From Candidatus Zixiibacteriota bacterium (GTDB taxonomy: Bacteria > RBG-13-66-14 > B26-G2 > WVWN01), in contig JAUWLW010000001.1 of assembly GCA_030613505.1 (NCBI GenBank), forward strand, positions 62,001 to 126,000: a stretch of 64,000 bases of DNA, read 5' to 3'. Of this stretch, positions 6,924 to 59,998 are shown in pieces. Both the position numbers and the translations under genes were made by a program. Under the pieces are notes generated by a model. That model did no database searches. It was not told where the DNA came from and worked only from the letters and a program-made list of their open reading frames with translations. Position 1 is the stretch's first letter. Every line of letters begins with the position of its first letter.

Positions 6924-7580
6924 CGACCATCACCCGTGCAAACGGCGGCGGCCCACCGGTTCGAATGCTTGCTTCAACCGCTACCGGCGAAGTTAAGTTC
7001 GCTGAGCCCCACTTTGAAAAATATACCTTGTGGGTCGACGGGTCGCCCAAAACCGCTTTACCTGGGCCACTAGCTTGGATTCCGGTTAAACGGTTTCCGG
7101 GCCCTTGGAAAGAACTTACCACGGAACCGGTCGTAGTAATTTCCAAGGCCAGGTTCTTTTCGGGGATAGCGACGTATTTATCGTAAATCCCCCCACTCAA
7201 GTCCGCCGGGTGGTCCCAGGGGCACCGGAAAGAGGCGATAACGGAACCCGTAGTCGTTAACCGGTAGATGTAGCTCGTATTGAAGTTGGAAACGACGAGG
7301 TCACCGCCCCCTTCCCGCCACTTCGTTAAACCCCAAGCGCCGGTCGGGACGGCCAAGGAGATATATTCCGAGGGCTTAGTCACGCTATATACGCGGGGGG
7401 GCGTGCCGTCGCAGAGTACCGAAAGGCCGTAAGGCGCGTTGAAAACCACGCCGCGGGCGTTCGACGCCGGCGCGGGATAAGAGCTTATGATTGACCACCC
7501 GGTTGCCGCCGCCTCCCCGACAAAAAACGCGGCCCCGGCGAGCGCCAGAAGGCCGCAAAATATGGCTAATTTTTTCCCGG
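6854..7580 (-). pseudogene. Doubly truncated secreted propeller gene
   Basis: An open frame from about 7611 to 6592 contains a propeller protein related to the gene at 4964-5701 (GWSIISSYPAPASNARG opening, TTGSVIASF and TTGSVVSSF units). Its upstream end has the signal peptide core AIFCGLLALAGAAFFVGEAA but no ATG, GTG or TTG start; similarity to the intact leader at 6080 ends near 7580. At the other end the C-terminal tag begins (EAVAPAS) and is cut at 6853, where the sequence switches to out-of-phase transporter copy A. The gene has therefore lost both ends, one at each neighbouring rearrangement. A GTG at 7447-7449 could give a 285-residue chimaera, but this is probably not functional. Confidence 0.7.
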
Positions 7581-7638
7581 GCCGACGTTTTTTTCGAAAG
7601 CGCCGTTTAATGCGTTAGTTATAGGATGGTGAATACGG

Positions 7639-8295
7639 TCAGTTAGGTTTAGGAATGACCCGTTTCTTTTCCGCAATTCTCCCGGCCGCGTAGACTAATT
7701 CTTCAAACGGCGGTTCCCCGCAGTGTTCTTCTCTTAATTTAGGTATTAAAGCTTTAAGGTCTTCGAATACCTTGAGTACTTTTTTTGGCGTTGGAAACTT
7801 AAAACCTTCTGTTAACGGTTTGAACCACTCCACGACTATTTTTATTATCGCCGCCGGCTTATTACTATGTATTCTCGGGTCATGCCCCGCTAAGTCCGAT
7901 AACGTTTTACTAAGTCTATGTAGTTTGCTTTCTAACAAAAACCATTGATATTTACCGCGTTTAGTATATTCCATTGCATAAACAATCCCTAATTCGAAGG
8001 CCATATTCATACGGGGTAGTTTTTCTTTTCCCCCGGGCATCCTAGATAAGTCGTTAATCGAATAACCGCAACCGATAATTAGATCCATTATCTTTTCCAT
8101 TCGCCCAATGCCTGTTTCCCGGACTTCCAACGCCGATCTGGGTTGCTTACCTATACACACAATAGAACATACTAAAGCTAAGAGTAAGTCGCGATATTCG
8201 TCATCGAAAGGTACGTTAAGAAATACCTGTGTCGGTTCCGGTCGCGGTTTTTTCGGCGTTTTTCTTAATGGCTTCGGTTGCGTTTTTCGTCCCAT
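7639..8295 (-). CDS. TIR-like/deoxyribosyltransferase-fold protein of unknown function
   Basis: This 218-residue protein begins with a basic tail and then the family core: QVFLNVPFDDEYRDLLLALV, a LEVRETGIGRMEKIMDLI helix, YSINDLSR, and PRMNMAFELGIVYAM, followed by a WFLLESKLHRLSKTLSDLAGHDP segment. I recall this pattern from a widespread uncharacterised family whose N-terminal half resembles TIR or nucleoside deoxyribosyltransferase folds, with the FELG glutamate as a plausible catalytic residue; that function is inference. It is markedly more AT-rich than its neighbours. It has a strong GGGAGGT ribosome-binding site and lies 61 bases after the small gene at 8357-8536, suggesting a two-gene horizontally acquired cassette. 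Confidence 0.75.
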   Translation of the reverse strand: MGRKTQPKPLRKTPKKPRPEPTQVFLNVPFDDEYRDLLLALVCSIVCIGKQPRSALEVRETGIGRMEKIMDLIIGCGYSINDLSRMPGGKEKLPRMNMAFELGIVYAMEYTKRGKYQWFLLESKLHRLSKTLSDLAGHDPRIHSNKPAAIIKIVVEWFKPLTEGFKFPTPKKVLKVFEDLKALIPKLREEHCGEPPFEELVYAAGRIAEKKRVIPKPN

Positions 8296-8356
8296 AGACC
8301 TCCCGTTAATGCAATAATTCCTTGCGTTTTAAATGCCCCAAAGCCTTTTTGGTAAC

Positions 8357-8536
8357 TCACGCTTTTTTCGCGCGCTTTAAGCCTTTTGCGGTTTCGTCAC
8401 GCAAATCGCCCTGGTTCTCCGAAATCATCCGGTCTATACGTTCTTTATCATTTTTCGCTATTTTTAATAGTCGTAATAGCTCATCGATGTCTATAATACG
8501 GTCGGTTGTTAAGCCGGCCCTTTTCTTGTTTGCCAT
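8357..8536 (-). CDS. Small charged helical protein (59 residues) paired with the TIR-like gene
   Basis: Found by translating the gap by hand. The ATG at 8534-8536 is preceded by AAAGGA at eight-base spacing. The product opens MANKKRAGLTTDRIIDIDEL and is rich in Lys, Arg, Asp and Glu with heptad-like Leu and Ile spacing, so it is probably alpha-helical. It ends in a basic KGLKRAKKA tail. Base composition is AT-rich like the TIR-like gene just downstream, and the two are probably co-transcribed. I recognise no family; a regulator, antitoxin or adaptor are possibilities. Confidence 0.6.
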   Translation of the reverse strand: MANKKRAGLTTDRIIDIDELLRLLKIAKNDKERIDRMISENQGDLRDETAKGLKRAKKA

Positions 8537-8605
8537 ATCACGATTCCTTTATATGGTTCGCGTCATTAAGCCGACGTTTCTATCTTTAACCGTGCTCGTT
8601 CTAAC

Positions 8606-8623
8606 ACAAGTCTTGCTACTTGT
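8606..8623. promoter_or_regulatory. Inverted repeat upstream of the AT-rich cassette
   Basis: ACAAGT and ACTTGT are perfect inverted 6-mers separated by six bases, about 70 bases upstream of the small gene's start and 31 bases after the transporter stop codon. It could be an operator for the cassette; no clear promoter hexamers were found beside it. Confidence 0.3.
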
Positions 8624-8653
8624 CTATGATATTAGACTGCTAAACGTTAAGAT

Positions 8654-9427
8654 TTATATCAATAAAACCCCAATAACGAGCAATACAATAAACGGCGCGA
8701 CGCCGGCGCCCACCGTCCCGGGGTGGAAGTCCGGGCCGAAGCCGGAGGCGAAGAGGCCCTGGCCCTCCACGCCCAGCGAGATGAAGTTCCCGGCGACCAT
8801 GCCGCCCACGCACGCGATTACGATTAATATCAGGCCGAGGGCGAAGGTGCGGGGGCGCCGCGGCGTAACGTCCAGCACGTCCGGGTAGAGGAGGCCGAGC
8901 GCCCGCACGCGCTTGTCGAGCGCCTTCAGGAGCAGCGGCCCGAGTATCGCCGGATAGATTATGTCGTTGGCGACGATGACGTTGCCCAGCGCCGCGAAGG
9001 GCGCGATGCCCAGGAGGTCGCCGCCCCAGCCGATGAAGAGGCCGCAGGCCGCCGCGGCCAGGACCACCGTCGCCTCGACGAGCACCAGGCCCCGCCACGA
9101 CGCGAGGTACTCCTTCTCGGAGGCGCGAATGAGCCGGTAGGGGATATACGCCAAAAGGAAGTTGCCGCCCAGGCCGAAGATGCTGCCCCACCCCAGCGTG
9201 CCGAAGAAGTCGCCCAGCAGGTTGCCCAGTGCCGCGCCCACGGCGCCCGCCGGCCCGAACAAGAGCCCCGCGACGAGCGGTATGGCCGCGGCGGGCCGCA
9301 TCTCCGTCAGGCCCGGGATGAGGACCAGCGGCTTGAAGGGGATGAGCAGCGCGGCGTAGAGGGCCGCGGTGGCCGAGGCCAGCACGACCATCCGCGTGTT
9401 CCCCCACATATTGAGGAGCTCGCGCAC
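8654..9427 (-). CDS. QueT-like/ECF-type membrane transporter subunit, copy B (intact)
   Basis: This 257-residue integral membrane protein has about six hydrophobic segments and an ATAALYAALLIPF start that fits QueT-like S components of ECF transporters. It retains a natural N-terminus (MRELLNMWGNTRMVVLASAT) missing from copy A at 6129-6923. The ECF energising module (EcfA, EcfT) is not in the window; S components commonly share a module encoded elsewhere. The ligand cannot be predicted with certainty. It follows the peptidoglycan-binding protein gene with a four-base gap, so the two are likely co-transcribed. Its copy forms a direct repeat enclosing the AT-rich cassette. Confidence 0.85.
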   Translation of the reverse strand: MRELLNMWGNTRMVVLASATAALYAALLIPFKPLVLIPGLTEMRPAAAIPLVAGLLFGPAGAVGAALGNLLGDFFGTLGWGSIFGLGGNFLLAYIPYRLIRASEKEYLASWRGLVLVEATVVLAAAACGLFIGWGGDLLGIAPFAALGNVIVANDIIYPAILGPLLLKALDKRVRALGLLYPDVLDVTPRRPRTFALGLILIVIACVGGMVAGNFISLGVEGQGLFASGFGPDFHPGTVGAGVAPFIVLLVIGVLLI

Positions 9428-17856: not shown

Positions 17857-20800
17857 TTACCCTATCCTTACCCTTTCCCAAAGGGCGGCTACGATCCGCG
17901 CGCGTAGCCTTTGGTCTATGATGCCGCGAGTATAATCGTCTATTACGGCCGCGATACGTTCTTTTAACTTAATAAAATTAGGTAAAATACTTTCGAGGTA
18001 GTACAAATCCTCCGGCACGAGCGCGGCCTCCGCGCCGGTCTCGGCCCACGTGGCAAGGTAACGGGCTTCGGCCTCGGACCCGCATTCTATGCGGCCTTTA
18101 ACCATATCTTTGCCGACGACGACGAACCAACCGTATAGGTCTTTATCTATGGAAACAGCCTCCGCCGGTTTCCACCCGTGCCCCGTGAGGTGGTCGCGGC
18201 CGCTAAGCTTATCGCGCACGAACGAAGCCAACGTATCTCCCCCCAACGCCGCAAGGACGTTCTTGGCGAGTTGCTCGGTGTCAATGCCGCCGGGTTTCTT
18301 TTTCTTAAGTTTAACGCTGGCCGATTTATTTATTCGGGTGTTTACTAAATCTATTATAGCCCGGTAAACTTCTATTTGTTCCGCTTCTGATAAATTTAAG
18401 ACCTCTCCCATAATAAAAGTATCTAATTCTCTAAGGTCTCTTTTTATACTTTTTAACGTAACATCGTTAACGTTTTTAGCGCCCAGCTCTTCAAATATCG
18501 AAACTATAGGCCTTGCCCCTATCTTTTCGACCAATTTTTCGCAACGTCGTTTATTACGTACTCTATTCGGGTTTAGCACGGTTAATTTCTTAGCCAGTTT
18601 CGCATTAAGTTCTACAACCGTATAAGAGCCTGTTAATTCGTACCCCGAAGTTTCGTAAAAAAACCTTCCCAGGGAAGAGTTTAAATAACATACCAAAGGA
18701 GCTTCGTATAAAGGGTTAATGAAATTAATCCCATGGAAATTCTGGGAAGCGTAATAACCCCCTTCATTCAAATATACTATATATTTCTCGCCTATTCTTT
18801 TCGGGATTAATACGCGGTATATCTCGGCTCTTTTATTTTTATACCAAAAACTCCCGCGAGGTTCCCCTTTTTCTTTTTTATTAAAGCCCTTTAATTCGCC
18901 CGCTTTTATGTAACCCCGCAAATTAGGGCTTTTCATCGCTTTCTTTTCTTCTTCGATAAACAAGACTACCGGTAAACCGCTCAAATCTTTAAGAACGATT
19001 GAATCTACCCCTTTATGCGTTGTTAATATCCTATTGGGGGTTAATTTACCGCTGTCATCCTTATGTTTCCAATACGCCCTTTCGATACCAGCCTTTTTAA
19101 TATCTTCGGGATTTTGAATAAAAAAATCATCTATCCCGGTACGTATCCCGCTCTTTACTTCGCCAATAGCTGGCGACAGCGGCACAAAGAAATCCGAGCA
19201 TTTGCTTAATATCTTAAAATATACCGCAGGAGCCCTTAAGTACTTACCCCACTTCGCGCCCGTATATACGCCCCTTTCCTCGTTATATCCCTCCCGCCAT
19301 AGTTCTCTTTGCTTAATAGGGTTTACCCGGAGTTCCTCGTTCTCGTATGGTTCGTCGTGACCGAGGACCGTTTCCACTATCGCCGTTACGGCCCGGCGCC
19401 TCGCGATTTGGCCTTCCCACGCGTCGGCGGCCGGCGGGATCAACGCGCTTAGCGGCATTTTAAGGTAGACGAACCGGGTTGCGTTGTCGTCACGCATCTC
19501 CTCGACGGAGCATTTCTCCAATACTACGAGGCACGTGTTAACGTCGGCACCCTCGAACCACCGCTCGACCTTAGATTCAACGATAGCGAGTATTTTGTAG
19601 TTTTTAAGGAAGAACTCCTGCAAGCCCGCCCCGTAGTCTTTGTCGTCCAACCATGCGTTAAAAACTACGAACCCAAAACGCCCTTTTTCTTTTAAGAATT
19701 TATAACCATGTATGAAAAAATAAGCGTAAATACCCGCCTTTTCAGATATATTAGCTATTTTGATACTGTCTTCGTATAAAGCCGATTTTAAAACCGCCTT
19801 TTTATATTCCGGGTCGCCGGTTATGCGGGCCATTTCCTCCTGGCGTGTGTAGGGCGGGTTGCCGACTACGGCATCCACTAGGCCGGGCTTGGGAATGTGG
19901 ACCGGGCCGGCTTCTAATGCCGCCGCCGCGGCTTTATCTCCCGCCGCCGGCTTTTCCTTGAAGAAGTCGGTATGGAAAACCCGCGGGTAATTCTCGGTTA
20001 CGCCCAGATTGCGAATGGCTAAATTGATCGTGGAAAGATGTGCGGGGAACTTGGCGATATCGAAACCGTACAACGTATCTAAAATACGCTCGTGCTCCTC
20101 GCGCAACATAGGGTTCATGAGCGTTTTCTGCCGATAAGCTCGTACGAGGAACGTTCCGGCGCCGCATCCGGGGTCGAGTACGTCGTCGTTTTCGTCGCGA
20201 AGGCAAAAGCCAAGGATCAAATCGACGACGTTAGCGGGCGTAAAGTACTGGCCGAGTTCATGCCGGCGTTCGGGGGGAATTAGGTTTTCAAATATCCTCC
20301 CTAAAATTTCAAAGTCGACTTTCGAGAAGTCGTATCCCCGTAGGTAATCGACAAGATCGACTATTTCGCCGATTACCGTGGTATCGTCGGGGAACGCGGC
20401 TTCGTCTATGAAGTCCGTCGTATAAATCGTTTCGTAGTCGATCCCCAATACCTCGTCGAAGTAATTCTGGAGGTTTTTACGTAGCGTTTCTCCGCGTACA
20501 ATTCCTTTACTTAGCTCTAGTTGGCTGATCCGCTGTTTGGTTTGAAGAACGTTATAAAATAATATTTTATTTACTAGGAGGTGCCCCGCCTGACGCCCCG
20601 CTTTCGCGAAGTCGTCGTCGCTGGCGGTGAAGTTCCAACTTTGGTCCGCAAACCAATACCGTAACCGCTCTTCGAATTTTTTATCTTCGCCGAAACGCTT
20701 TTGGATTATCGTCTTATAGAACGCGCTAAGGCGGTCGATTTTTTCGTCGAGCCGCCAGACGAGAACGTCGTCTATAGGGTGTTTCGGTTCGGCGCGTTTT

Positions 20801-21312
20801 CCCGCGGCGACCTCGTACAACGCCGTTAGAAAACGGCCTAGCGCGTTTTTTATAACGATCTGGTTAACCGGCTCTCTAATTTCCTCGAGGTCGTTTATCG
20901 CCGAGAGGTCGAATTGGTCGATAACCTGTTCTTCCTCTCGCATGTCCGCGGCGGTACGTTCGGTGCTATACCAAATCAGTTTCCGGAAGTTGCACGTCGC
21001 ATAGTATGGGGCCCGCCGCTTTCCAGCTTTTTCGTACGCGGGTTTTTTAAGTTCGTCGTAGTTGTATACGTCGAACTCCGGCCTTTTACATTCGATTAAC
21101 ATTAATACTGTTTCACTGCGCGGCTTTTCGTAGATCAGTATGTCCGGTTGTTTTACGTCGTCCGCCGTCGTTTCTACGAAAGCCTCGCCTAAGTCGAGCT
21201 GCTTCTCGCTCGTTACTTCGTTAATCCACTCGCATAACTTAGCCGCGGCCGAACGCTCAGTTAGACGCGTTAACCCCGTAGGCATCCGTTTCCTTTTTCG
21301 CGCGGGGGACAT
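17857..21312 (-). CDS. Single-chain restriction-modification enzyme (Type IIG-like, N6-adenine methyltransferase)
   Basis: This 1151-residue protein fuses a nuclease and methyltransferase. Residues about 20-120 have a PD-(D/E)xK-type nuclease pattern resembling HsdR_N (D57 in PDILIY and E74-C-K76). A helical linker follows, then the adenine-methyltransferase core with RHELGQYFTP at 350-359, motif I LDPGCGAGTFL near 380-390 and the catalytic NPPY at 485-488. The C-terminal 500 residues contain a TaqI-like specificity region and a long helical tail. Such enzymes both methylate and cut DNA as phage defence. The middle of the gene is AT-rich compared with its surroundings, which suggests horizontal origin. 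It is flanked by the RadC remnant and the antitoxin-like gene. Confidence 0.88.
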   Translation of the reverse strand: MSPARKRKRMPTGLTRLTERSAAAKLCEWINEVTSEKQLDLGEAFVETTADDVKQPDILIYEKPRSETVLMLIECKRPEFDVYNYDELKKPAYEKAGKRRAPYYATCNFRKLIWYSTERTAADMREEEQVIDQFDLSAINDLEEIREPVNQIVIKNALGRFLTALYEVAAGKRAEPKHPIDDVLVWRLDEKIDRLSAFYKTIIQKRFGEDKKFEERLRYWFADQSWNFTASDDDFAKAGRQAGHLLVNKILFYNVLQTKQRISQLELSKGIVRGETLRKNLQNYFDEVLGIDYETIYTTDFIDEAAFPDDTTVIGEIVDLVDYLRGYDFSKVDFEILGRIFENLIPPERRHELGQYFTPANVVDLILGFCLRDENDDVLDPGCGAGTFLVRAYRQKTLMNPMLREEHERILDTLYGFDIAKFPAHLSTINLAIRNLGVTENYPRVFHTDFFKEKPAAGDKAAAAALEAGPVHIPKPGLVDAVVGNPPYTRQEEMARITGDPEYKKAVLKSALYEDSIKIANISEKAGIYAYFFIHGYKFLKEKGRFGFVVFNAWLDDKDYGAGLQEFFLKNYKILAIVESKVERWFEGADVNTCLVVLEKCSVEEMRDDNATRFVYLKMPLSALIPPAADAWEGQIARRRAVTAIVETVLGHDEPYENEELRVNPIKQRELWREGYNEERGVYTGAKWGKYLRAPAVYFKILSKCSDFFVPLSPAIGEVKSGIRTGIDDFFIQNPEDIKKAGIERAYWKHKDDSGKLTPNRILTTHKGVDSIVLKDLSGLPVVLFIEEEKKAMKSPNLRGYIKAGELKGFNKKEKGEPRGSFWYKNKRAEIYRVLIPKRIGEKYIVYLNEGGYYASQNFHGINFINPLYEAPLVCYLNSSLGRFFYETSGYELTGSYTVVELNAKLAKKLTVLNPNRVRNKRRCEKLVEKIGARPIVSIFEELGAKNVNDVTLKSIKRDLRELDTFIMGEVLNLSEAEQIEVYRAIIDLVNTRINKSASVKLKKKKPGGIDTEQLAKNVLAALGGDTLASFVRDKLSGRDHLTGHGWKPAEAVSIDKDLYGWFVVVGKDMVKGRIECGSEAEARYLATWAETGAEAALVPEDLYYLESILPNFIKLKERIAAVIDDYTRGIIDQRLRARIVAALWERVRIG

Positions 21313-29471: not shown

Positions 29472-30587
29472 TTACAGGCCTTCCAGGAGCTCGAGCCGCT
29501 GCGAGGCTTTGGCGCGACTCTCGGCCAGGTCGTCCCGGCCGGCGGAGTAGCTTAAAAATCCGCGGTAATACGAGGCCGCCGCGTCGGCATCTTCGTCGAC
29601 GTCGGCCAGCGCCGCGAGGTTGTAGTAAGGTTCGGCGAAATCCGGCTTTAAGCGCACGACCTCCATGTACCCCGCCCGCGCCTCCTCCACCCGGCCCACC
29701 TGCTGCTTGACGAAGGAGAGGCCGAAGAGGTAGTGCGCGTTCTCCGGAAACCTGTCCACCAACCGTTGGTATATCTCGAGGGCTTGCTCGAACTCGGCCG
29801 CGGCCGCATAGTCGGCGGCGTACTCCGCCAGTACGTCCGCGCTCGCCGCGCCTTCGACAACGGCCTCGAAGTAGTAATCGACGGCGCTTTGCCGGTCCCC
29901 CGCCGCCTCGTACGTCGCGGCCAACTCGGCCAGCGTCGGGCCGTCGCGGCCGTACTTCAACGCCTCCTCGTAGTAGACGATGGCCTTATCCACGTCACCC
30001 GCCGCCCGCGACCACTCCGCCAGCGCCAGGTAAATTTCCCGCGTGCCCGGTCGCCGCGTCAGGTAGTACTCCAGCGTATCGCGCGCCTCCCCCCCCCGGC
30101 CCAAGTGATCCAGCAGCTTGGCCTTCAAAAGATGGGCGTTGTCTCTATCCAGCCCCCGGGCAAAAGCCTCGTCGAGGTAGTGCAGGCCGTTGCGGTAATC
30201 GCCGCGGCGCTCCCCGATAACGGCCAGATTGTATAGGACCGCGATGTCGTCGGGGTACGCCTCCCGCGCCGCCAGCAAGTCCCTTTCCGCCGCCCCGAAC
30301 TCCCCCCGGGCCATCAGCGCGAGCCCCCGGATGAGGCGGGTGGCCGCGTCGTCGGGCCACGTCGCCAGGATGTCGTCCGCGAGCTCAAACGCCCGCTCGT
30401 AGTCGCCCACGAGCAACGCGGCCTGGGCAAGGTTCCGCCCCGCCGCCAAATCCCCCGCGGCGCCGACAATACCCGCCAGCGCGCCAGCCAACAACGCAAC
30501 TTTGGTAAGCGAAAACCTCACTTTTAGCCAAAGTCTAACAGAATACAACGGCATCGTCAAGCTAAATGGCTTTAATTTAAAGGCCAT
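29472..30587 (-). CDS. TPR repeat protein, first gene of the TPR operon
   Basis: This 371-residue protein has an N-terminal hydrophobic segment (LTKVALLAGALAGIVGAAG) that may be a signal peptide or anchor, then about nine TPR units such as PGTREIYLALAEWSRAAGDVDKAIVYYEEALKYG. It is first of four adjacent TPR genes on this strand. The ATG at 30585-30587 lies about ten bases beyond the divergent plus-strand promoter at 30595. A start at the second methionine (MPLYSV) is also possible. Confidence 0.85.
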   Translation of the reverse strand: MAFKLKPFSLTMPLYSVRLWLKVRFSLTKVALLAGALAGIVGAAGDLAAGRNLAQAALLVGDYERAFELADDILATWPDDAATRLIRGLALMARGEFGAAERDLLAAREAYPDDIAVLYNLAVIGERRGDYRNGLHYLDEAFARGLDRDNAHLLKAKLLDHLGRGGEARDTLEYYLTRRPGTREIYLALAEWSRAAGDVDKAIVYYEEALKYGRDGPTLAELAATYEAAGDRQSAVDYYFEAVVEGAASADVLAEYAADYAAAAEFEQALEIYQRLVDRFPENAHYLFGLSFVKQQVGRVEEARAGYMEVVRLKPDFAEPYYNLAALADVDEDADAAASYYRGFLSYSAGRDDLAESRAKASQRLELLEGL

Positions 30588-30594
30588 TTTACCC

Positions 30595-30623
30595 TTGACG
30601 GGATATTTGCTCTATGCTATAAT
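30595..30623 (+). promoter_or_regulatory. Near-consensus sigma70 promoter
   Basis: TTGACG (30595-30600), a 17-base spacer and a perfect TATAAT (30618-30623). It is among the best promoter matches in the window. Transcription would start near 30630, leaving about 70 bases before the gene at 30702. Confidence 0.85.
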
Positions 30624-30650
30624 GAAATATAACTTGGTGCTGGGACAACC

Positions 30651-30685
30651 GGGCCCCCCGAACGCGTTTCGGCGGGGCCTTTTTA
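30651..30685 (+). terminator. Intrinsic terminator inside the leader: attenuator or small-RNA end
   Basis: GGCCCCCCGAA and TTCGGCGGGGCC pair around a CGCG loop, followed by TTTTT. It lies only about 22 bases after the predicted transcription start and before the ribosome-binding site AAGGAGGG of the gene at 30702. Either transcription is attenuated before the gene, or a short RNA of about 55 bases is made. Confidence 0.7.
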
Positions 30686-30701
30686 TTTAAGGAGGGCTTT
30701 T

Positions 30702-49885: not shown

Positions 49886-51412
49886 CTACCGGCTCCGGCC
49901 CCGGGGGGCGGCCGGCGCCGCCGCGGCCGCGAGGCCGAGCTCCGATACTATCTCCTCTACCGTTTGACGGTCGCTGTAGGGTATTTCGCTCCCCTTTACC
50001 TTTTGGACCTCTTCGTGGCCTTTGCCCAGTACGGCGATTACGGTCGCCTCTTCGGCCCGGGCGGACGAGAGGGCGAAGCGGATCGCCTGGGCGCGGTCCA
50101 GGATTACGCGGTAGTCGTCCGGTTCGGCGCCGCCCTCCCCGATTATGCCCGCGGCCACGTCGCGCGCTATGGCCGCCGGCTCCTCGTAGTACGGGTCGTC
50201 GGTGGTGACGACGGCGTAGTCCGCGTACCGCCGCGCCAGCGCGCCCATCGTCGGCCTCTTCTCGACGTCGCGGTCGCCGGTGCAGCCAAAGACGGCGACG
50301 ACGCGGTCGGCGCCCAGGCCGCGGATTTCGGCCAGCGCTTTCTCCACGCTGTCGGGCGAGTGGGCGTAATCTATTACCACCCGCAGCTTGTCGTTTACGT
50401 TTACCAGCTCCAGGCGCCCGGGGACCGGCGGCGTCTCGGCTATACCCTTTCGGGCGACGTCGGCGGCCACGCCCAGCTCGCGCGCGACGGCGAAAGCGGC
50501 CGCGCAGTTCAACACGTCGAAAGACCCCGGAAGCGGCGAGGCGATCTCGACCGCGGCGCCGTCCGGGCACGCGAGGGTGAAGCTCAGCCCGCCCCAGCCG
50601 GACGACGCGTTAACGACGCGATAATCGCTTTCCGTTTCGCGTACGCCGTACGTGACGACGCGCCCCGACAGCGACGCCGCAAGCTTCCGGCCGTACGCGT
50701 CGTCGACGTTCACCACCGCCGGCGCGCTCTCCGCCAATTGCTCGAGCAGCGACGCCTTGACGGCGAAGTACGAATCCATGTCGCCGTGGAAGTCGAGGTG
50801 GTCGTGGCTGAGGTTGGTGAACGCCGCCGCGGCGAACGGCGTCCCGGCCACCCGCGACAGCGCCAGCGCGTGGGAGGAGACCTCGACTACCGCGACGCCG
50901 CAGCCGGCATCGGCCGCTTCCCGCAACAGCGCCTGCAGCTCCGGCGCCTCGGCCGTCGTAAGGCGGGCCGGCCGCTCCTCGCCGGCGACGACGTTCTTCA
51001 CGGTCGACGCCAGCGCGGTCTTATAACCCGCGGCGCGAAATATGCCGTCCAGCACGAAGGCGACGGTCGTTTTGCCGTTGGTCCCGGTAACGCCGACAAC
51101 GGCCAACTCCCGACCCGGGTGGCGGTAAAACGCCGCGGCCGCGGCCGCCAGCGCCCGGCGAGCGTCGTCGACGATTACCTGGGAAACGGCGGCCGCGTCG
51201 GCGGATACCCTCTCTACGACGACGGCCGCGGCCCCCCGGCCGACGGCGTCGGCAAGGAAATCGTGGCCGTCATGCCGTTTCCCCTTAACGGCTACGAACA
51301 AAGCGCCGGGGATAACCCGCCGGGAGTCGTACGTAACGGCTGTGATATCGGGATTAGCGGCGCCCTTTACCTCCCGGTAAGGGAGCTCTTCCAGTATTTC
51401 CTTTAGTTTCAA
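49886..51412 (-). CDS. murE: UDP-N-acetylmuramyl-tripeptide synthetase MurE
   Basis: This 508-residue Mur ligase adds the diamino acid to UDP-MurNAc-L-Ala-D-Glu. The ATP motif GVTGTNGKTTVAFVLDGIF, VVEVSSHALALSRVAGTPF and DYAHSPDSVEKAL are present. The substrate-specificity motif reads DDPYYEEP instead of the diaminopimelate-type DNPR, so the amino acid could be mDAP, lysine or ornithine. The start codon is TTG at 51410-51412. It is the first gene of the long minus-strand run and divergent from the XRE-STAND-TPR gene. Confidence 0.92.
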   Translation of the reverse strand: MKLKEILEELPYREVKGAANPDITAVTYDSRRVIPGALFVAVKGKRHDGHDFLADAVGRGAAAVVVERVSADAAAVSQVIVDDARRALAAAAAAFYRHPGRELAVVGVTGTNGKTTVAFVLDGIFRAAGYKTALASTVKNVVAGEERPARLTTAEAPELQALLREAADAGCGVAVVEVSSHALALSRVAGTPFAAAAFTNLSHDHLDFHGDMDSYFAVKASLLEQLAESAPAVVNVDDAYGRKLAASLSGRVVTYGVRETESDYRVVNASSGWGGLSFTLACPDGAAVEIASPLPGSFDVLNCAAAFAVARELGVAADVARKGIAETPPVPGRLELVNVNDKLRVVIDYAHSPDSVEKALAEIRGLGADRVVAVFGCTGDRDVEKRPTMGALARRYADYAVVTTDDPYYEEPAAIARDVAAGIIGEGGAEPDDYRVILDRAQAIRFALSSARAEEATVIAVLGKGHEEVQKVKGSEIPYSDRQTVEEIVSELGLAAAAAPAAPRGRSR

Positions 51413-51423
51413 AGGTTTACAGA

Positions 51424-51438
51424 GCCTAAAATTTAGGC
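51424..51438. promoter_or_regulatory. Inverted repeat next to the -35 element
   Basis: GCCTAAA and TTTAGGC are perfect inverted arms of 7 bases separated by one A, abutting the -35 hexamer at 51439. A likely operator between murE and the XRE-STAND-TPR gene. Confidence 0.55.
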
Positions 51439-51467
51439 TTGACTTACAGTAAATATTATGCTATCTT
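51439..51467 (+). promoter_or_regulatory. Sigma70-like promoter of the XRE-STAND-TPR/glmS unit
   Basis: TTGACT (51439-51444), 17-base spacer, TATCTT (51462-51467). Transcription would start near 51474, leaving a leader of about 130 bases before the ATG at 51606. Confidence 0.7.
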
Positions 51468-51479
51468 ACTAATAGTAAG
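51465..51479. promoter_or_regulatory. Inverted repeat overlapping the -10 element
   Basis: CTTACT and AGTAAG are perfect inverted 6-mers with three bases between, covering the -10 hexamer and start site. The TTACAGTAA and CTCA/TGAG repeats nearby (51443-51452 and 51491-51505) are similar, suggesting several operator half-sites. Confidence 0.5.
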
Positions 51480-51605
51480 AACGTTGCTTCCTCAGTAAGG
51501 TTGAGCGTTTACATAAAACATTAACGCAAATACTATCACAACCGGCTTTTATAATCAACCGTTAATTAGACTCGCAAGTTTAACCACCCTCTGTAGCGCC
51601 TCCGG

Positions 51606-53816
51606 ATGAACGGTAGAAACATAACGTTCGGCAAGGTCCTCCGCGAGAAGCGGATAGGCCGCGGCCTGACCCAACGGGAGCTGGCCGAGCGGGCCAACGT
51701 CGACGATTCGTACATATCCCAGCTCGAGCGCGATTACAAGTTTCCCTCCGCCCGCACGATTGAGGGCCTGGCGGGCGGCCTCGGCGTCGAGGTGGCGGAG
51801 TTGCTGGCGATGTACTTTCCGCCGGCGGAGGTGAAGGAGCAGACGGCGTTCGTGGGCCGCGGCGACGAGGCCGGGGCGTTCGAACGGTGTTTGGCGGGGC
51901 CCGAGGGCCTGTTGGTGGTCGCGGGTAAGGCGGGGTCCGGGAAGACGGCGCTGGTCAACGAGCGTTTTATCCCGGCGTGCCGGCGCGAGAGGACGCCCTA
52001 CATATATATCGAGAGCCGGCGCCTTACGTCGTACCGCGGCTTTTTGAAGGACCTGCGCGACACGTTCGCCTCGCGCAAGGGCGCGTACCGCGCCTTCGAC
52101 GAGATATTCGACCAGTGTGAATCGGTGGAGAGGCGACTGCGAGGCCGGTTCAAAGACCCGTTCAGCGTCCAGGTCACGGGGGGCGTCGCCGAGGCTGCGC
52201 CGGAAGGGGACGAAGAGCTGACGTACGCCGAAAAGTACATGTACCGGGAGGCCGAGAGGCTCCTTACGGAGGAGTTCCTGGCCGGGTGGCGGGCGTCGTC
52301 GTCGAAGGACGCCGGCAAAGCGGCCATTTTTTTGGACGACTTCCACGACGTCGGCGCGACGGTGGGCTATTGGATATGGCGATTCGTCGAGCGGCTGAGC
52401 GAAGTCGGCGTTTTAGGGCGGAAGTTGCTGGTCGTCATGACGGCCGCGCCGCCGCGGATGCCGGCGGTACCGGAGGGCATACGGAGCGTCAGGACGCTCG
52501 AGCTGAAGCCGTTCTCGCCCGCCGAGGTGGAGGAATACGTCCACGCCCGCGGCCTGAAGCCGACCGACGACGAGTGGGCGTTGATTACGTCGCTCGGGGG
52601 CGACGTCCGCTCGTTGAAGTTCTGGGGAGACTACCTCGAGGCGGCCGCGGACTACGCCGAAAACCGTCTGGGCGTGGCGGAGGAAGCGCTGCGCCGGTTG
52701 GACGAGGGTTTGTCGCCGCACCTGGCGGACGAGTCCTTGCATAAGGCGCCGCTGCTCCTGGTAAAAACGCGCCGCCTTTTGGGCCACCTGACGAGGTTGC
52801 AGGGCCGGTTGGCGGAAGCGGCCGATTATTACGGCTCGGCCGCGGCCTTGGTGGAGAGCTCGACCGAGGGCCGGCCCGCGGACATGGGTCACCTGTATCT
52901 GGACCTGGGCCACGTGAGTCGTCACCGCGGCCGGTGGGACGAAGCGATAGCGTTCTATACCCGCGCCTGCGACGAATTCGCCGCCGCGGCCGAGGCCATA
53001 GGCGAGGGCATAGCGCATTCCAGCCTGGGCACGGCATTCAGGCTCAAGCGTAAATACTCGCGAGCCAAGCAGGAGTATCGCCAGGCGTCGACGATACTGG
53101 CCGGCTTAAAGGACCGGGCCGACGCGGGCCCGGAGGCGCGCCGTTGGCTGGCGAGCACGTTATCCAACAACGCGATAGCGCTTCGCCTCGAGGCGGAGGA
53201 GCTGATGCGCTCGGGCGAGGAAGCGGCGGCGTGGAAGGCGCTCGAGCGCGCCAAGGCGACGTGCCAGGAGGCCGTAACGGTCAGCGACGACGCCGCGGAG
53301 ACCGCGGTCGCCGAAAACCGCTACGGGTTGTGCCTCTTTACGGAGAGCCGTTGGCCTCGCGCCGCCGGCGCCGCGGCGGAGGCGGCGGAACTGCTGGCCG
53401 AGGCGACGACGCGCCACAGGCGGGCGTTGGCCGTCTTCGAGGACCTGGGCGACCAATATCGGGTGGGGCAGGTCCTGGCGGACCTGGGCGTCGCCGCCGC
53501 GCAACAGGGCCTGGTTCACGACGCGATTATAAATTTGAAAAACAGCGTGGCCGTATTCCAGCAGATGGGGAGCCGGTACCACCGGGCGAAGGTCCTCGTC
53601 GAGCTGGGTTTGTTGTCCGAGGCAGGCGAGCAATTGTCTTATTTTGCCGAGGCGCTGGCGGCGGCCCGCGACCACAACGACGAATCGCTGGCCGAGATCG
53701 CCGCGGCGGTGAAGGGCACGCTGGAGGCCGGCGACAGCCGGCGAGCCCGGCAATTCATCGACGCGCAAACGGCGGCCGACGCCAAGCTCGGGCCGTTTTT
53801 CGAGGATGCGGTTTAG
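51606..53816 (+). CDS. XRE-STAND-TPR regulator
   Basis: This 736-residue protein joins three parts. An XRE-type helix-turn-helix (8-65, RGLTQRELAERANVDDSYISQLE) is followed by an STAND ATPase with Walker A GKAGSGKT (107-114) and Walker B FLDDF (242-246). From about residue 390 to 720 it has TPR-like repeats. Such proteins sense ligands or damage and switch on genes after ATP-driven oligomerisation. It lies 35 bases upstream of glmS and opposite murE, so a role in cell-wall or amino-sugar control is inferred. No Shine-Dalgarno is seen before the ATG. Confidence 0.87.
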   Translation: MNGRNITFGKVLREKRIGRGLTQRELAERANVDDSYISQLERDYKFPSARTIEGLAGGLGVEVAELLAMYFPPAEVKEQTAFVGRGDEAGAFERCLAGPEGLLVVAGKAGSGKTALVNERFIPACRRERTPYIYIESRRLTSYRGFLKDLRDTFASRKGAYRAFDEIFDQCESVERRLRGRFKDPFSVQVTGGVAEAAPEGDEELTYAEKYMYREAERLLTEEFLAGWRASSSKDAGKAAIFLDDFHDVGATVGYWIWRFVERLSEVGVLGRKLLVVMTAAPPRMPAVPEGIRSVRTLELKPFSPAEVEEYVHARGLKPTDDEWALITSLGGDVRSLKFWGDYLEAAADYAENRLGVAEEALRRLDEGLSPHLADESLHKAPLLLVKTRRLLGHLTRLQGRLAEAADYYGSAAALVESSTEGRPADMGHLYLDLGHVSRHRGRWDEAIAFYTRACDEFAAAAEAIGEGIAHSSLGTAFRLKRKYSRAKQEYRQASTILAGLKDRADAGPEARRWLASTLSNNAIALRLEAEELMRSGEEAAAWKALERAKATCQEAVTVSDDAAETAVAENRYGLCLFTESRWPRAAGAAAEAAELLAEATTRHRRALAVFEDLGDQYRVGQVLADLGVAAAQQGLVHDAIINLKNSVAVFQQMGSRYHRAKVLVELGLLSEAGEQLSYFAEALAAARDHNDESLAEIAAAVKGTLEAGDSRRARQFIDAQTAADAKLGPFFEDAV

Positions 53817-53851: not shown

Positions 53852-55687
53852 ATGTGCGGCATAGTGGGATACGTGGGCAAGCGAGCGGCGGCGCCTATTC
53901 TGGTGGACCGCCTAGACGACCTCTCCTACCGCGGATACGATTCGGCGGGCATAGCGGTCGCGAACGACGGCGTGGTCGTCGTCGAGAAGTTGCCCGGTAA
54001 GATAGAAAACTTGAGGAAGGCGCTGACCGGCAACGAGCCCCCCGGCACCATCGGCGTGGGGCACACCCGCTGGGCCACCCACGGCGCGCCCACCCAGGTC
54101 AACGCCCACCCCCACGCCGATTGCGCCGGCAAGTTGTTCGTGGTCCAGAACGGCATAATCGAGAACTTCCCGGCGCTGAAGCGGGAGCTTCTGGCGCGTG
54201 GGCACGAGTTCCGCTCCCAGACCGACACCGAGGTCGTTATCCATTTATTGGAGGAGTACTACGACGGCGACTTGATGGATGCCGCCAAAAAGACCGCGGC
54301 CCGGCTCGAGGGCTCGTTCGCGCTGGTATTCCTGGCGGCGGACGAAAGACGGCTGGTCGCCGTCCGCTACCACGCGCCGCTCATCGTGGGCGTGGGGGGC
54401 GGCGAGAACTTCGTGGCCTCGGACATCACCGCGGTCCTCCAGGACACCAACAAAGTATACGTCCTCGAGAACGGCGACGTGGTATCGGTGGAGGCCCACC
54501 GAGTCGACGTCGACACCTTCCTGCCCCAGCGTGCCAAGGCGCCCACCGAGCGCCGGCTCACCATCGTCGACTGGCGCGCCGAGGACGTCTCCAAGAACGA
54601 TTACCCGCATTATATGTTGAAGGAGATATACGAGCAACCGCGCGCGGTGGAGCGGACGCTGCAGGGCCGCATCAAGGACGGCGAAATCGTCCTGCGCGAG
54701 ATGGACCTCTCGCCCGAGCGCATCAGGCGCGTCGACTCCTTCCACATCGTCGCCTGCGGGACCGCGTACCACGCCGCCCTCTTCGGCAAGTACCTGCTGG
54801 AGCGCGTGCTGCGCGTCCCGGTATCCGCAGACATCGCCTCCGAGTTCCGCTACCGCGCCCCCATCCTGGGCCCGAAGTCTCTCGTGATACTGATAAGCCA
54901 GTCGGGCGAGACCGCGGACACCATCGCGTCGATGGAGGAGGCCCAAAGCCGCGGCGCGAAGACGCTGGCCGTCGTCAACGTTCGGGGGAGCACGCTGGCC
55001 CGCGAGGCCGACGCCGTGGTATATACGCGCGCCGGCCCGGAAATAGCCGTCGCCTCCACCAAGGCCTTCACGGCCCAACTCACGGCGCTGATGCTGCTGG
55101 CGTGCTACGTCGCGGACCAGCGCAAGGTGGAGTTGCCGTACGGCCGCGAGGAGCTGTTGCGCCACTTGCTCGAGCTCCCCGCCCACCTCGAGCGGACGCT
55201 GGAGGTCGCGGCGCCCACCGCCAAGGCGTGGGGCGAGATTATCGCCGGCGAACGCGACTGCTACTTCCTGGGGCGCAACGTCGACGAGCCGCTGGCGCGC
55301 GAGGCCGCGCTCAAGCTCAAAGAGATATCGTACGTCCACGCCGAGGCGTACGCCGCGGGGGAGCTGAAGCACGGCACCATCGCGCTCATAACGGAGGGGA
55401 CGCCGGTCGTATCGTTCATGACGCAAAAGGACGTGTGGGACAAAATGATATCGAACATCCACGAGGTCCGGGCGCGCGGCGCGCGCACGTTCGCCGTGGT
55501 GTGCGAGGGCGGCTACGGCCTGGAGGACCTGGTGGAAGACGTACTTACGCTGCCGGCGGTACCGGAGCTGTTCACGCCGGTGCTGGCGGCTATCCCGGCG
55601 CAACTCATCGCGTACGAGGCCGCCGCGGCGCTCGGCCGCGACGTGGACCAGCCGCGCAACCTCGCCAAGAGCGTTACGGTGGAATAA
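53852..55687 (+). CDS. glmS: Glutamine-fructose-6-phosphate aminotransferase
   Basis: This 611-residue enzyme forms glucosamine-6-phosphate from fructose-6-phosphate and glutamine, the first step to UDP-GlcNAc. The N-terminal nucleophile C2 follows the start Met (MCGIVGYVGKR). The glutaminase motif VGHTRWATHGAPT and two SIS domains (VACGTAYHAALFGKYLLE, and ISQSGETADTIASM) are present. An AGGAAGG ribosome-binding site precedes the ATG. No glmS ribozyme was recognised in the short leader. Confidence 0.97.
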   Translation: MCGIVGYVGKRAAAPILVDRLDDLSYRGYDSAGIAVANDGVVVVEKLPGKIENLRKALTGNEPPGTIGVGHTRWATHGAPTQVNAHPHADCAGKLFVVQNGIIENFPALKRELLARGHEFRSQTDTEVVIHLLEEYYDGDLMDAAKKTAARLEGSFALVFLAADERRLVAVRYHAPLIVGVGGGENFVASDITAVLQDTNKVYVLENGDVVSVEAHRVDVDTFLPQRAKAPTERRLTIVDWRAEDVSKNDYPHYMLKEIYEQPRAVERTLQGRIKDGEIVLREMDLSPERIRRVDSFHIVACGTAYHAALFGKYLLERVLRVPVSADIASEFRYRAPILGPKSLVILISQSGETADTIASMEEAQSRGAKTLAVVNVRGSTLAREADAVVYTRAGPEIAVASTKAFTAQLTALMLLACYVADQRKVELPYGREELLRHLLELPAHLERTLEVAAPTAKAWGEIIAGERDCYFLGRNVDEPLAREAALKLKEISYVHAEAYAAGELKHGTIALITEGTPVVSFMTQKDVWDKMISNIHEVRARGARTFAVVCEGGYGLEDLVEDVLTLPAVPELFTPVLAAIPAQLIAYEAAAALGRDVDQPRNLAKSVTVE

Positions 55688-55712: not shown

Positions 55713-56852
55713 ATGGCGCTATCTCTGAATAAACTTCGGCTCGTGGCCGTCGGCGGCGGCACGGGCCTGGCCACACTGTTGCGGGGCATCAAAGGCTACG
55801 TACGGCGGCACGACGAAGACGAGGAGGCCCCGCTCGACCTCTCGAGCCTCACGGCCGTCGTCACCGTCTCCGACGACGCCGGCGCCGCCGGCAAGTTGAT
55901 AGACGAGTTCGGCATCCTCCCGCCGGGCGACATCCGCGCCTGCCTGGCGGCCCTCGCCGACGAGGAGGAGCTGCTGTCGAAGTTGTTCCTGCACCGCTTC
56001 GTGGGGGGCGGCGCCTTCGGCGGCCAGGCCTTCGGCAACCTCTTCCTCACCGCGCTCGTCCAGATGAACGAGGGCGACTACCTGAACGCCATCAAGGACG
56101 CGAGCCGCGTCCTCCGCGCGGACGGGACCATCCTGCCGGCCACGCTGGAACACGTGCGGCTGTGCGCCGAAGTCGAGGGCGGCCGCGTCCTGGTGGGCGA
56201 GGACGAGCTGAACCGCAACGGCGGCCGCATAAGCCGCGTCTACCTCGCCCGACGCGAGAACGGCGACGGCGACGGCCCGCCCGAAGAGATCGCCTGCGAG
56301 CCCATGCCCGACGCGGTCGAGGCCATACTCGACGCGGACGTAGTAATCCTGGGCCCGGGCGGCCTGTACACCTCCATCATCCCCAACCTGCTAGTCGGCG
56401 GTATATCGGACAGCATCAAGCAGGCCAACTGCCGGACGATATACATCGCCAACGTCATGACGCAACGGGGGAAGACCGACGGCTTCTCCCTCTCCGACCA
56501 CATCCGCGAGATAAAGAAGTACGGCGACTTTCCCGTCGACTACGTCCTCGTCAACGACCGCGAGGTATCGCCGGCGGTGCTCGCGACGTACGCCCAGGAA
56601 GGCGCGACCCAGATATTGTTCGACCCGGACGAGTCGGACGAGGTGTCGGCGGTGTCGTTCGGCGGCGGCCGCGAGCTGTTGGTGGTCGAGGGAAGCATCA
56701 TCCATACCGCCGACGTCATCGCCGAGGTCGAGGAGCAATCTATCCGCCAGGAGGCCGGCGCGGGCGACGTCGAGACCAAGACGGTCCTGCGCCACGACCC
56801 GGCCAAATTGACGGCGGCGTTGATAGAGGTTCTGAAAGCAACCCAGAGTTAA
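55713..56852 (+). CDS. yvcK: YvcK-family gluconeogenesis factor (CofD-like)
   Basis: This 379-residue protein has the YvcK core: LRLVAVGGGTGLATLLRGIKG, then LTAVVTVSDDAGAAGKLIDEFGILPPGDIRACL, and DAVEAILDADVVILGPGGLYTSIIPNLLVGGI. YvcK binds UDP-GlcNAc and controls carbon flux and cell-wall synthesis. Lying between glmS and a beta-helix protein matches that role. The spacing (25 bases after glmS, 19 before the next gene) indicates one transcript. Confidence 0.93.
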   Translation: MALSLNKLRLVAVGGGTGLATLLRGIKGYVRRHDEDEEAPLDLSSLTAVVTVSDDAGAAGKLIDEFGILPPGDIRACLAALADEEELLSKLFLHRFVGGGAFGGQAFGNLFLTALVQMNEGDYLNAIKDASRVLRADGTILPATLEHVRLCAEVEGGRVLVGEDELNRNGGRISRVYLARRENGDGDGPPEEIACEPMPDAVEAILDADVVILGPGGLYTSIIPNLLVGGISDSIKQANCRTIYIANVMTQRGKTDGFSLSDHIREIKKYGDFPVDYVLVNDREVSPAVLATYAQEGATQILFDPDESDEVSAVSFGGGRELLVVEGSIIHTADVIAEVEEQSIRQEAGAGDVETKTVLRHDPAKLTAALIEVLKATQS

Positions 56853-56871: not shown

Positions 56872-57960
56872 ATGAGCGAAGAGATTAAGACGGCGGCGCT
56901 TTTCGACCTCAAGGCCACGGCCTACGGCGACTTCCTCGCCTCGCTCGAGTGGCCGTGGGACGCCCTCAAAGAGATCGCGGCGCTGGTCCGCGAACGCTTG
57001 CGCGGCGTCCGCGAGGGCGAGATTATGCCCGGCGCTCATATACTGGGGGACGACGTGGATATAGGCCCGGGCACGGTGGTGGAGCCGGGCGCCGTCGTCA
57101 AGGGCCCCACGGTAATCGGCGCCGACTGCGAGATCCGCGCCGGAGCGTACATCCGCGGCAACGCCGTCGTCGCGGACCGCTGCGTCGTCGGCAACTCCAC
57201 CGAGCTCAAGAACGCGCTCATGCTCGAGGGCGCCCACGCGCCCCACTTCAACTACGTCGGCGACAGCGTCCTGGGCCTGCGCGCCAATCTGGGCGCCGGC
57301 GTCAAGCTCTCCAACTGGAAGGTGGCCGCCGACAAGAAAATTAAAATCGCCGTCGGCGGCCGCGTCATCGACACCGGCCTCGATAAGTTCGGCGCCATCC
57401 TCGGCGACGACGTCGAGATAGGCTGCAACGCGGTGACGAACCCGGGGACCGTCGTCGGGCCGCGCACCATAATATACGCCAACAGCAACGTGCGCGGTTT
57501 CGTCTCCCCCGACTCGGTGTTAAAATTACGCCAACCCCAGGACATCGTGCCGCGGCGCGATATAACGGCTTATCGCCAATGGGATCGTGAACAAATAATT
57601 TCAGCTATCCGAAGAATGAACCTAAATACTGACTTGTTCGGTAAAATAACGGAGGAAAAATTAAGCATCTATTCGAAGGCATACAAGGTTTTCGGAAATT
57701 GGCAAAATGCTTTAGTAGCGGCAGGTATACCCGATGCGGAAATAGAAGCTTTTAATAAAAAACGAAAATGGACGCCCGATGCTATCATTGAAGAAATAAT
57801 TAAGAGAAATCGAAAAGGAGAAAACCTTACGCAACGCGTAATTCGAAAAAGTTACCCCGAATTGTTTAGAGCCGCAAATCGTTATTTCGAGTCGTGGATG
57901 TCAGCGGTATACGCCGCTGGTTTAGAGCTTGACGAAAACCGTCCTCGTAAACGGCATTAA
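56872..57960 (+). CDS. Left-handed beta-helix acyltransferase-like protein fused to HNH-associated repeats
   Basis: This 362-residue protein contains a left-handed beta-helix (about 50-215) with hexapeptides such as IGPGTVVEPGAVVKGPTVIG, resembling the acetyltransferase domain of GlmU. It then continues in a tail (about 230-362) with two units of a helical motif: WDREQIISAIRRMN...NWQNALVAAGI and WTPDAIIEEIIKRN...SWMSAVYAAGL. The latter pattern matches homing-endonuclease-associated HNH repeats. Base composition shifts to AT-rich from 57560. Similar proteins normally end near residue 229. The fusion is unusual; the tail may bind DNA. Confidence 0.8.
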   Translation: MSEEIKTAALFDLKATAYGDFLASLEWPWDALKEIAALVRERLRGVREGEIMPGAHILGDDVDIGPGTVVEPGAVVKGPTVIGADCEIRAGAYIRGNAVVADRCVVGNSTELKNALMLEGAHAPHFNYVGDSVLGLRANLGAGVKLSNWKVAADKKIKIAVGGRVIDTGLDKFGAILGDDVEIGCNAVTNPGTVVGPRTIIYANSNVRGFVSPDSVLKLRQPQDIVPRRDITAYRQWDREQIISAIRRMNLNTDLFGKITEEKLSIYSKAYKVFGNWQNALVAAGIPDAEIEAFNKKRKWTPDAIIEEIIKRNRKGENLTQRVIRKSYPELFRAANRYFESWMSAVYAAGLELDENRPRKRH

Positions 57961-58042
57961 TAACCTTGTTTAAGATTAACCCCCTTTGTTAACGAAACGC
58001 CGCAATTTTTCGGTGATCCGTTTCGGATATCAATAATAAATA

Positions 58043-59998
58043 ATGGACAGGATACAGGGGACCGACGGCATCCGGCGCGACGTTCGGCGGCAGGACGACC
58101 CGTCGCTCGCCGGCCTCTCGCCGTGGGAGGCCTTCGTCGAACGCGGCGTAATTACGGACGCCTTCCTGGAGGGGTACGCGTACGCCTTCGCGCGGCTTCG
58201 CCTCGAGGAGTCCCCCGCTTCGGCCGAGGTTGTCGTCGGCTGGGACCCGCGCGACCCGTCGGGCGATTTTACCGGCGCCGTCGTGCGCGGCCTGCGGAAG
58301 GCGTACGCGGCGGCGGCCGTAATGGGCGTGGCGCCCACGCCGGCGGTGCCTATGTATATGGCCTACCGCGGCGCCGCCGCGGGCCTGATGGTCACCGCCT
58401 CCCACAACCCCGCGGGCCAGAACGGCGTTAAAATATTCCTCGCGCCGGCGGGTCTAAAGTTATTGCCGGCCGACGACCGGCGTTTGACGGCGGCGGTGGC
58501 GGCGCTGGACTGGGAGGAAGTCGCCGCGGCCGAGCCGCGCGGCGAAGAAGTCGACGTCTCGCGCGAGTGGCGGGAAGTATTCGCCGTCTCTCACCTCGCC
58601 GAGTGCAACTCGTGGCTCAGGGCCGGGGAAAGGCCGCTGGCCGACTTCGTCCTGGTGGTGGACCCGGCGCGCGGGTCATATTCCGGTGCAGCGGCGGAGA
58701 TTCTGCGCGCCTACGGCGCCGACGTCGTCGAGGTCAACGCCGACGAGGGCGACGGCCGCGTCAACTGGCGCTCCGGCGTAGCGGACCTGGAGGGCGTCGC
58801 GTCGATATCGTTCGAAGACGTCTCGCCCGGCGGCCGGTTCGGCGAATATCCGGCGCTCGTGGCGCTGGACAAACTCGCCGGCGAGTACGACGCCGCGTTG
58901 GCGACGGGCGAATCGTTCCTGGCCGGCGCCATCTTCGACGCCGACGGCGACCGCCTCTTCCTCGTCGTCTACGACCCTACCGCCGGCGAATTCGTCGTGT
59001 TGAGCGGCGACGAGGTCGCGATATTGCAAGCGGCGGAGCTGGCCCGGCGCCTCGGCGGCGCCGGCGGCGGCCGGGCTTTCGTAAACACCGTGGAGAGCGA
59101 CCTGGCGGTGGCGGGCGCCGCGACGTCGCTCGGCTTCGACGCCATATTGAAACCCGTCGGCGACAAGTGGATATTGACGGAGGCGTGGCGGCTGGCCGCC
59201 ACCGCGGGAGAAGCGCGCGAGGACGCGGTTTCGTTCTCGGCGGAGCTCGAGCCGCTTCTCGCGGCCGGCGCCGCGCCGCTCGCCCGGGAAATCCCTTACG
59301 GCGTCGGCTGCGAGGAGACGGGCCACGCCATTACCTTCGGCGAGCTGACGCGGGCCGACGGCGCCCTCATGCCGTTCGCCGCCGGCAACGGCCTGAAGTC
59401 GGCGTTAAACACCCTCGCCGCCATAGCGACGCTGCGGGGAAAACTCGGCCCGGACGGGTTATACCGCGAGCTGAAAGCGCCGTTCGAGCGGGGCCACAAG
59501 AGCAACAACTACGTCTTCTTCACGCACAAGGAACAGCTCCTCCGGGGCGGCGCGGCGTACGAGTTTATGGACGAGGAGCTAGAGGCCGCGCTCGCGAAGC
59601 ACGCGCCGTCGCTTGCGTTGGAACGGCTCGACTTTCCCGAGGAGCCGGATTTGTTGCACTGGGCCGGCTACGACGGCGGCCGGCAAGTCGTCGGCGTCTT
59701 CTGCCGCAACTCCGGCACCGAGGACAAGAGCGCGCTGTACGTGCGGGCGGCGAAGCCGTGGGCGGAGGCCGCGGCGGCGCTCGAGCGAGAACTCTTCCCC
59801 AAGTTCTACGCCGCGGTCAAAGACGTTAGCGACCGGCGCAGCGTAGCGGAGCTCGCCTGGTTGGCGGGGGGCGCGCGACCCGAAGAAGCGGAACTGCGGT
59901 GGGTGGCGGAGGGGCTTGAGCGCGTTATGGGCCCCGCGGGCTCCACGGCGCGCGGCGACGCGGTTTTGGCCGAATTGCACCGGGCGAAAAAGTTGTGA
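58043..59998 (+). CDS. Phosphohexomutase (PGM/PMM family)
   Basis: This 651-residue enzyme interconverts hexose-1- and -6-phosphates. The phosphoserine motif VTASHNPAGQNGVK has S120. Metal-binding DADGDRLFLV, sugar-binding GCEETGHAITF and phosphate-binding CRNSGTEDKSALYVR are present. It is longer than typical (about 450-580), with a C-terminal extension of about 60 residues. Whether it acts on glucose, mannose or glucosamine phosphate is unclear; the cluster context suggests GlmM-like or PgcA-like roles. Confidence 0.9.
   Translation: MDRIQGTDGIRRDVRRQDDPSLAGLSPWEAFVERGVITDAFLEGYAYAFARLRLEESPASAEVVVGWDPRDPSGDFTGAVVRGLRKAYAAAAVMGVAPTPAVPMYMAYRGAAAGLMVTASHNPAGQNGVKIFLAPAGLKLLPADDRRLTAAVAALDWEEVAAAEPRGEEVDVSREWREVFAVSHLAECNSWLRAGERPLADFVLVVDPARGSYSGAAAEILRAYGADVVEVNADEGDGRVNWRSGVADLEGVASISFEDVSPGGRFGEYPALVALDKLAGEYDAALATGESFLAGAIFDADGDRLFLVVYDPTAGEFVVLSGDEVAILQAAELARRLGGAGGGRAFVNTVESDLAVAGAATSLGFDAILKPVGDKWILTEAWRLAATAGEAREDAVSFSAELEPLLAAGAAPLAREIPYGVGCEETGHAITFGELTRADGALMPFAAGNGLKSALNTLAAIATLRGKLGPDGLYRELKAPFERGHKSNNYVFFTHKEQLLRGGAAYEFMDEELEAALAKHAPSLALERLDFPEEPDLLHWAGYDGGRQVVGVFCRNSGTEDKSALYVRAAKPWAEAAAALERELFPKFYAAVKDVSDRRSVAELAWLAGGARPEEAELRWVAEGLERVMGPAGSTARGDAVLAELHRAKKL

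Follow-up and report, generated by a model that had tools for sequence, protein, structure and literature searches.

How did an enzyme of an amino-sugar operon come to end in repeats that are named after homing endonucleases, and what might the repeats do there? The question is raised by a 362-aa open reading frame at positions 56872-57960 (forward strand) of the window, the 64,000-nucleotide stretch of DNA analysed here, which lies inside a 132-kb contig of a metagenome-type assembly of a Candidatus Coatesbacteria genome (2.86 Mb, 93% complete). The frame joins a beta-helix enzyme part to a 133-residue tail (Table 1). Its neighbours, called glmS and yvcK in an earlier note on this DNA, are glmS-like and yvcK/CofD-like by their Pfam matches.

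Table 1. Coordinates of the fused gene, the insert and related features (positions in the window unless a locus is named)
Feature	Position	Strand	Basis
glmS-like neighbour (SIS + glutamine amidotransferase)	53852-55687	+	Pfam PF01380, PF13522
yvcK/CofD-like gene next upstream, in synteny with same-genus genomes	55713-56852	+	Pfam PF01933
Native part, GlmU-acetyltransferase-like left-handed beta-helix (residues 1-228)	56872-57555	+	PF00132, TIGR03992, orthologue identity, dN/dS
C-terminal tail (two PF18780 HNH_repeat units, basic terminus, stop codon), open in the reading frame of the host gene	57556-57960	+	PF18780 match; absent from all sisters
Inferred foreign segment, about 490 bp	57560-58056	.	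Maximum-likelihood GC change-points
AT-rich (35% GC) spacer at the 3' end of the insert, reaching the start codon of the next gene	57961-58042	+	GC, change-point, no counterpart in the shorter sister intergenic sequence
Phosphoglucomutase/phosphomannomutase (glmM-like), syntenic downstream gene	58043-59998	+	Pfam PF02878, PF02880; start conserved in sister DNA alignment
Stand-alone four-repeat HNH_repeat protein, this genome (G000:C88)	L002 1468-2277	-	

The native part belongs to the hexapeptide-repeat proteins, with a Pfam Hexapep (PF00132) score of 61.7 bits against a cut-off of 27. Its top NCBIfam match is TIGR03992, through the acetyltransferase half only and at 164.4 bits against a cut-off of 292.1; full bifunctional GlmU, which is defined by nucleotidylyltransferase and acetyltransferase domains above the curated cut-off, is therefore not encoded here. 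The beta-helix ends at about residue 229-230 of the frame. Since divergence from its nearest sister, the host enzyme has acquired 13 lineage-specific residue changes, compared with 8 in the sister, and there is no clear sign of decay. Most likely it still works as a sugar-1-phosphate acetyltransferase, presumably as a trimer.

At the end of the beta-helix the DNA changes abruptly. GC content falls from 66% in the native part (residues 1-229) to 41% in the tail, and GC3 falls from 89% to 35%; GC at codon positions 1 to 3 of the tail is 0.485, 0.396 and 0.351. An AT-rich join had been described from the letters alone, and the left change-point at 57560 (support interval 57518-57594) places the join where it had been put. 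The right change-point, at 58056, has a support interval of 58042-58065. The AT-rich segment thus covers the tail with its stop codon and all of the spacer, reaching the start of the next gene, an extension past the stop that the earlier note had missed. A palindrome at 57544-57561, across the join, was considered as a target site and rejected, because it consists largely of native codons that are also present in the sisters.

Other parts of the window are also low in GC. A gene at 17857-21312 (reverse strand; 48% GC) encodes a 1151-aa type IIG restriction-methyltransferase-like protein (N6_Mtase, Eco57I; PADLOC REase_MTase_IIG) and is probably another acquired gene. A 218-aa open reading frame at 7639-8295 (reverse strand; 42% GC), inside an AT-rich island at about 7550-8700, has no match in Pfam or PADLOC. 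Short AT-rich stretches, mostly between GC-rich genes, were also seen at 51301-51650 and 30451-30700.

The comparison with relatives shows that the addition is specific to this lineage. Orthologues without the tail are found in three genomes of the same genus (81-90% identity to the host gene) and in one genome of the same order (68%). These genes end at about 231 residues, within a few residues of a shared double arginine, and in all four relatives the phosphomannomutase-like gene begins shortly afterwards. In DNA alignments with the sisters, sequence is shared on both flanks and the insert has no counterpart. Therefore, the tail and the AT-rich spacer (about 57560-58056) were inserted in this lineage only, and the fusion was found in a single genome. 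The earlier suggestion that extra residues follow residue 229 or so and that the natural stop codon was lost is borne out by the same-genus proteins, which stop at 231; the same tail at normal base composition, which would have spoken against an acquisition, was not seen in the related genomes.

The tail consists of two tandem HNH-repeat units, as had been read from its helical pattern. Searched on its own, it could have failed to match the family model; it matches PF18780 (HNH_repeat) in two stretches with an E-value of 1.2e-9 and 38.8 bits against a curated cut-off of 26, and it is a repeated-unit member of that family. An HNH nuclease domain was matched by Pfam neither in the fusion nor in the nearest stand-alone relative. 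No ATG, GTG or TTG lies in the inserted frame ahead of the first repeat's tryptophan, and the part equivalent to repeats 1 and 2 of its relatives is missing from the insert; thus, both repeats can be made only if translation runs on from the host gene. The scan for promoters and terminators stayed at chance level. The fusion frame is free of stops; the other five frames of the insert carry 4-12 stops each, and the frame stays open in only 2 of 20,000 base shuffles of the insert, so that its openness is not due to chance. The tail keeps 27 of the 35 positions conserved family-wide, compared with 11 of the 30 conserved only in Coatesbacteria proteins. Constraint has therefore acted on it, at least up to recent times, and the tail could still be functional. 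Such a pattern is what purifying selection on the fold would leave, whether this selection took place in the donor, the present host or both.

What such a tail could do is suggested by its chemistry and by the company that the repeats keep elsewhere. The tail is basic (pI 9.8), in contrast to the acidic host domain (pI 5.7), and AlphaFold models it alone as all-helical with moderate confidence (pLDDT 77); the full-length fusion is poorly modelled (pLDDT 54). A Foldseek search of the tail model against the PDB returned nothing significant, and no DNA-binding fold was matched. In other bacteria, HNH repeats occur beside HTH_3 (above the cut-off) and beside a ROS/MUCR match just below it. Indirectly, the basic charge and these co-occurrences make nucleic-acid binding by the tail plausible. 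One of the proteins concerned (L051 763-1953) carries, at the N-terminus of an HNH_repeat array, a ROS/MUCR-like zinc-finger region that scores just under the Pfam cut-off, a hint of DNA binding by the repeats. One plasmid match to the repeats is annotated as an HNH endonuclease. One paper on the repeat lists a model and assigns no function to it.

The closest relatives of the tail are found in its own class. A stand-alone protein of about 270 residues (269 aa) with four HNH repeats is encoded by six of the class's seven genomes, this one included. The present genome's copy shows four PF18780 stretches and lacks a nuclease domain; the other loci are L036-L039, including L036 3785-4594 and L039 3590-4411. 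In the genus, the gene adjoins ftsZ-like and histidine-kinase-like genes (judged by eye), and it has other surroundings in L039. A profile built from six stand-alone proteins, with the tail left out, aligns with the tail over its positions 137-259 at 115 bits and with no gap. Within the genus, the four stand-alone proteins closely resemble one another, and the tail is about 45% identical to the one from its own genome and 45-50% identical to any of the four. In a tree that also includes unrelated arrays from other bacteria, the tail clusters with those from Coatesbacteria (support 92/86) on a long branch, its place inside the group not being settled. Two overlapping sets of 386 genomes across the domain, together several hundred out of some 98,000 species, contained nothing closer than the Coatesbacteria proteins. 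Viral contigs, queried with the tail and with the alignment, and phage records yielded no relative, and no further DNA copy of the insert was found in the genome or phylum, where all matches were at chance or homology level. Two plasmid matches were considered as donors and rejected as weak (about 31% identity), namely a Brevibacillus HTH protein and a Halomontanus HNH endonuclease. The class does include an AT-rich member (G006, locus L023, 39% GC), which has no match to the repeats. The donor sequence itself was not found in the genomes, plasmids, phage or viral collections searched.

The age of the fusion helps to decide between sources. The host gene differs from that of the nearest tail-less sister by dN 0.058 and dS 0.336, and the insertion is younger than this split if absence of the tail is ancestral, as all four relatives indicate. 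It is conceivable that the 3' half of the genome's own stand-alone repeat gene was copied, diverged quickly and drifted towards AT, and the tail is indeed co-linear with repeats 3 and 4 of that protein. However, the tail and this presumed parent are only 45% identical and differ by dN 0.58, saturated dS and a GC3 of 35% against 74%; yet the split at dS 0.34 predates the fusion. Over the same split, the stand-alone gene has diverged by only dN 0.035 between this genome and the sister, so that a duplication after the split would need extreme acceleration, and we consider such an origin improbable. An in-genome duplicate with accelerated evolution may nonetheless be the source. The distances and the composition are most simply and best explained if the segment was transferred from a diverged, AT-rich lineage.

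A selected moonlighting fusion, in which the repeats would anchor the trimer on DNA or RNA and link the synthesis of amino sugars with gene regulation or the nucleoid, would agree with the intact frame, the conserved repeat core, the basic tail and the occurrence of such repeats beside HTH_3 and the near-threshold ROS/MUCR match. It is nevertheless unlikely, to about the same degree as the duplication: the fusion is confined to one genome, no sister carries it, the PDB search matched no DNA-binding fold, and the composition of the tail has not adjusted to that of the host, a sign of recent arrival. A regulatory role of the fusion is possible but unsupported. Even less likely is the specific design in which a cell-wall amino-sugar acetyltransferase trimer, with two horizontally acquired nucleic-acid-binding repeats on each chain and six in all, regulates metabolism while tethered to DNA or RNA; if true, this would be a new enzyme-regulator architecture caught soon after arising. 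The mobile intron or homing endonuclease that the earlier note had proposed as a source is not supported. A remnant of this kind at the gene end would account for the family name of PF18780 and the insertion-like boundaries, but it is very improbable in view of the missing nuclease domain in both the fusion and its nearest relative, the short and imperfect repeats that are all the region holds, the lack of phage or viral-contig relatives and of further copies in the genome or phylum, and the stand-alone Coatesbacteria repeat proteins as closest kin. An HNH homing endonuclease would be expected in an intron or intein, inserted at a conserved site and present in further copies; the insert lies at a gene end, has no DNA copies in the genome or phylum and does not qualify as one. 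An assembly chimera, with unrelated DNA placed in the operon, might be suspected from the abrupt change of composition in a single draft genome. Because both flanks derive from the same locus as in the sisters and the source family comes from the same class, this is just as remote; moreover, the insert falls exactly between genes, the frame is kept and the join lies inside the 132-kb contig.

On balance, the tail is probably the product of a recent, accidental fusion, in which a foreign insert added a tolerated two-repeat tail to an enzyme predicted to be still functional. About 490 bp of AT-rich DNA from a diverged, AT-rich relative would have entered between the last codons of the GlmU-acetyltransferase-like gene and the glmM-like gene, carrying the 3' half of a Coatesbacteria-type HNH_repeat gene, i.e., repeats 3 and 4, the stop codon and some 3' sequence. 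The native stop codon would have been removed and the insert would by chance have been in frame, as a result of which the enzyme would bear a tail of two helical repeats, folded and basic, that binds nucleic acids weakly at most. The restriction to one lineage, the boundaries, homology and composition of the insert and the argument on its age are shown here; beyond these, we infer a foreign donor, translation of the fusion in vivo, DNA binding, the activity and trimeric state of the enzyme, and that the tail has no selected function. Against this reading stand the missing donor sequence, the conserved positions of the tail and the restriction of the fusion to one metagenome-type assembly of 93% completeness. 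A recent, tolerated accident is favoured by the evidence on tail function together with a host enzyme that shows no clear decay.

The locus offers a clean, datable case in which horizontal transfer has apparently fused a domain to an enzyme at its stop codon, within an amino-sugar operon and with tail-less sister genomes for comparison. It also illustrates that homing-endonuclease-associated repeats exist as nuclease-free arrays, which unrelated genes can capture. The bacterial PF18780 members scanned were arrays of this kind, and the name of the family should not be taken to indicate an endonuclease.

Among known systems, the structures nearest to the native part are PDB 5z09 and 2ggo, dual sugar-1-phosphate nucleotidylyltransferases of Sulfolobus tokodaii. 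The left-handed beta-helix of their acetyltransferase half matches the native part over about 166 residues; their nucleotidylyltransferase half is missing here, and a repeat tail is added. The 2ggo chain stops 12 residues past the matched stretch, whereas the fused frame goes on into the repeats. The tail-less orthologues (L018, L019 and L020) have the same gene and downstream neighbour but end at about residue 231. With respect to PF18780, the homing endonuclease associated repeat of Pfam, the tail has two units above the cut-off and lacks the nuclease domain. The stand-alone Coatesbacteria protein is the closest counterpart: it is basic like the tail, and its residues 137-259 (repeats 3 and 4) can be aligned with the tail without a gap. 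It differs in having four repeats, its own start codon and a GC3 of 74%, whereas the tail has two repeats, a GC3 of 35% and a host enzyme to which it is fused.
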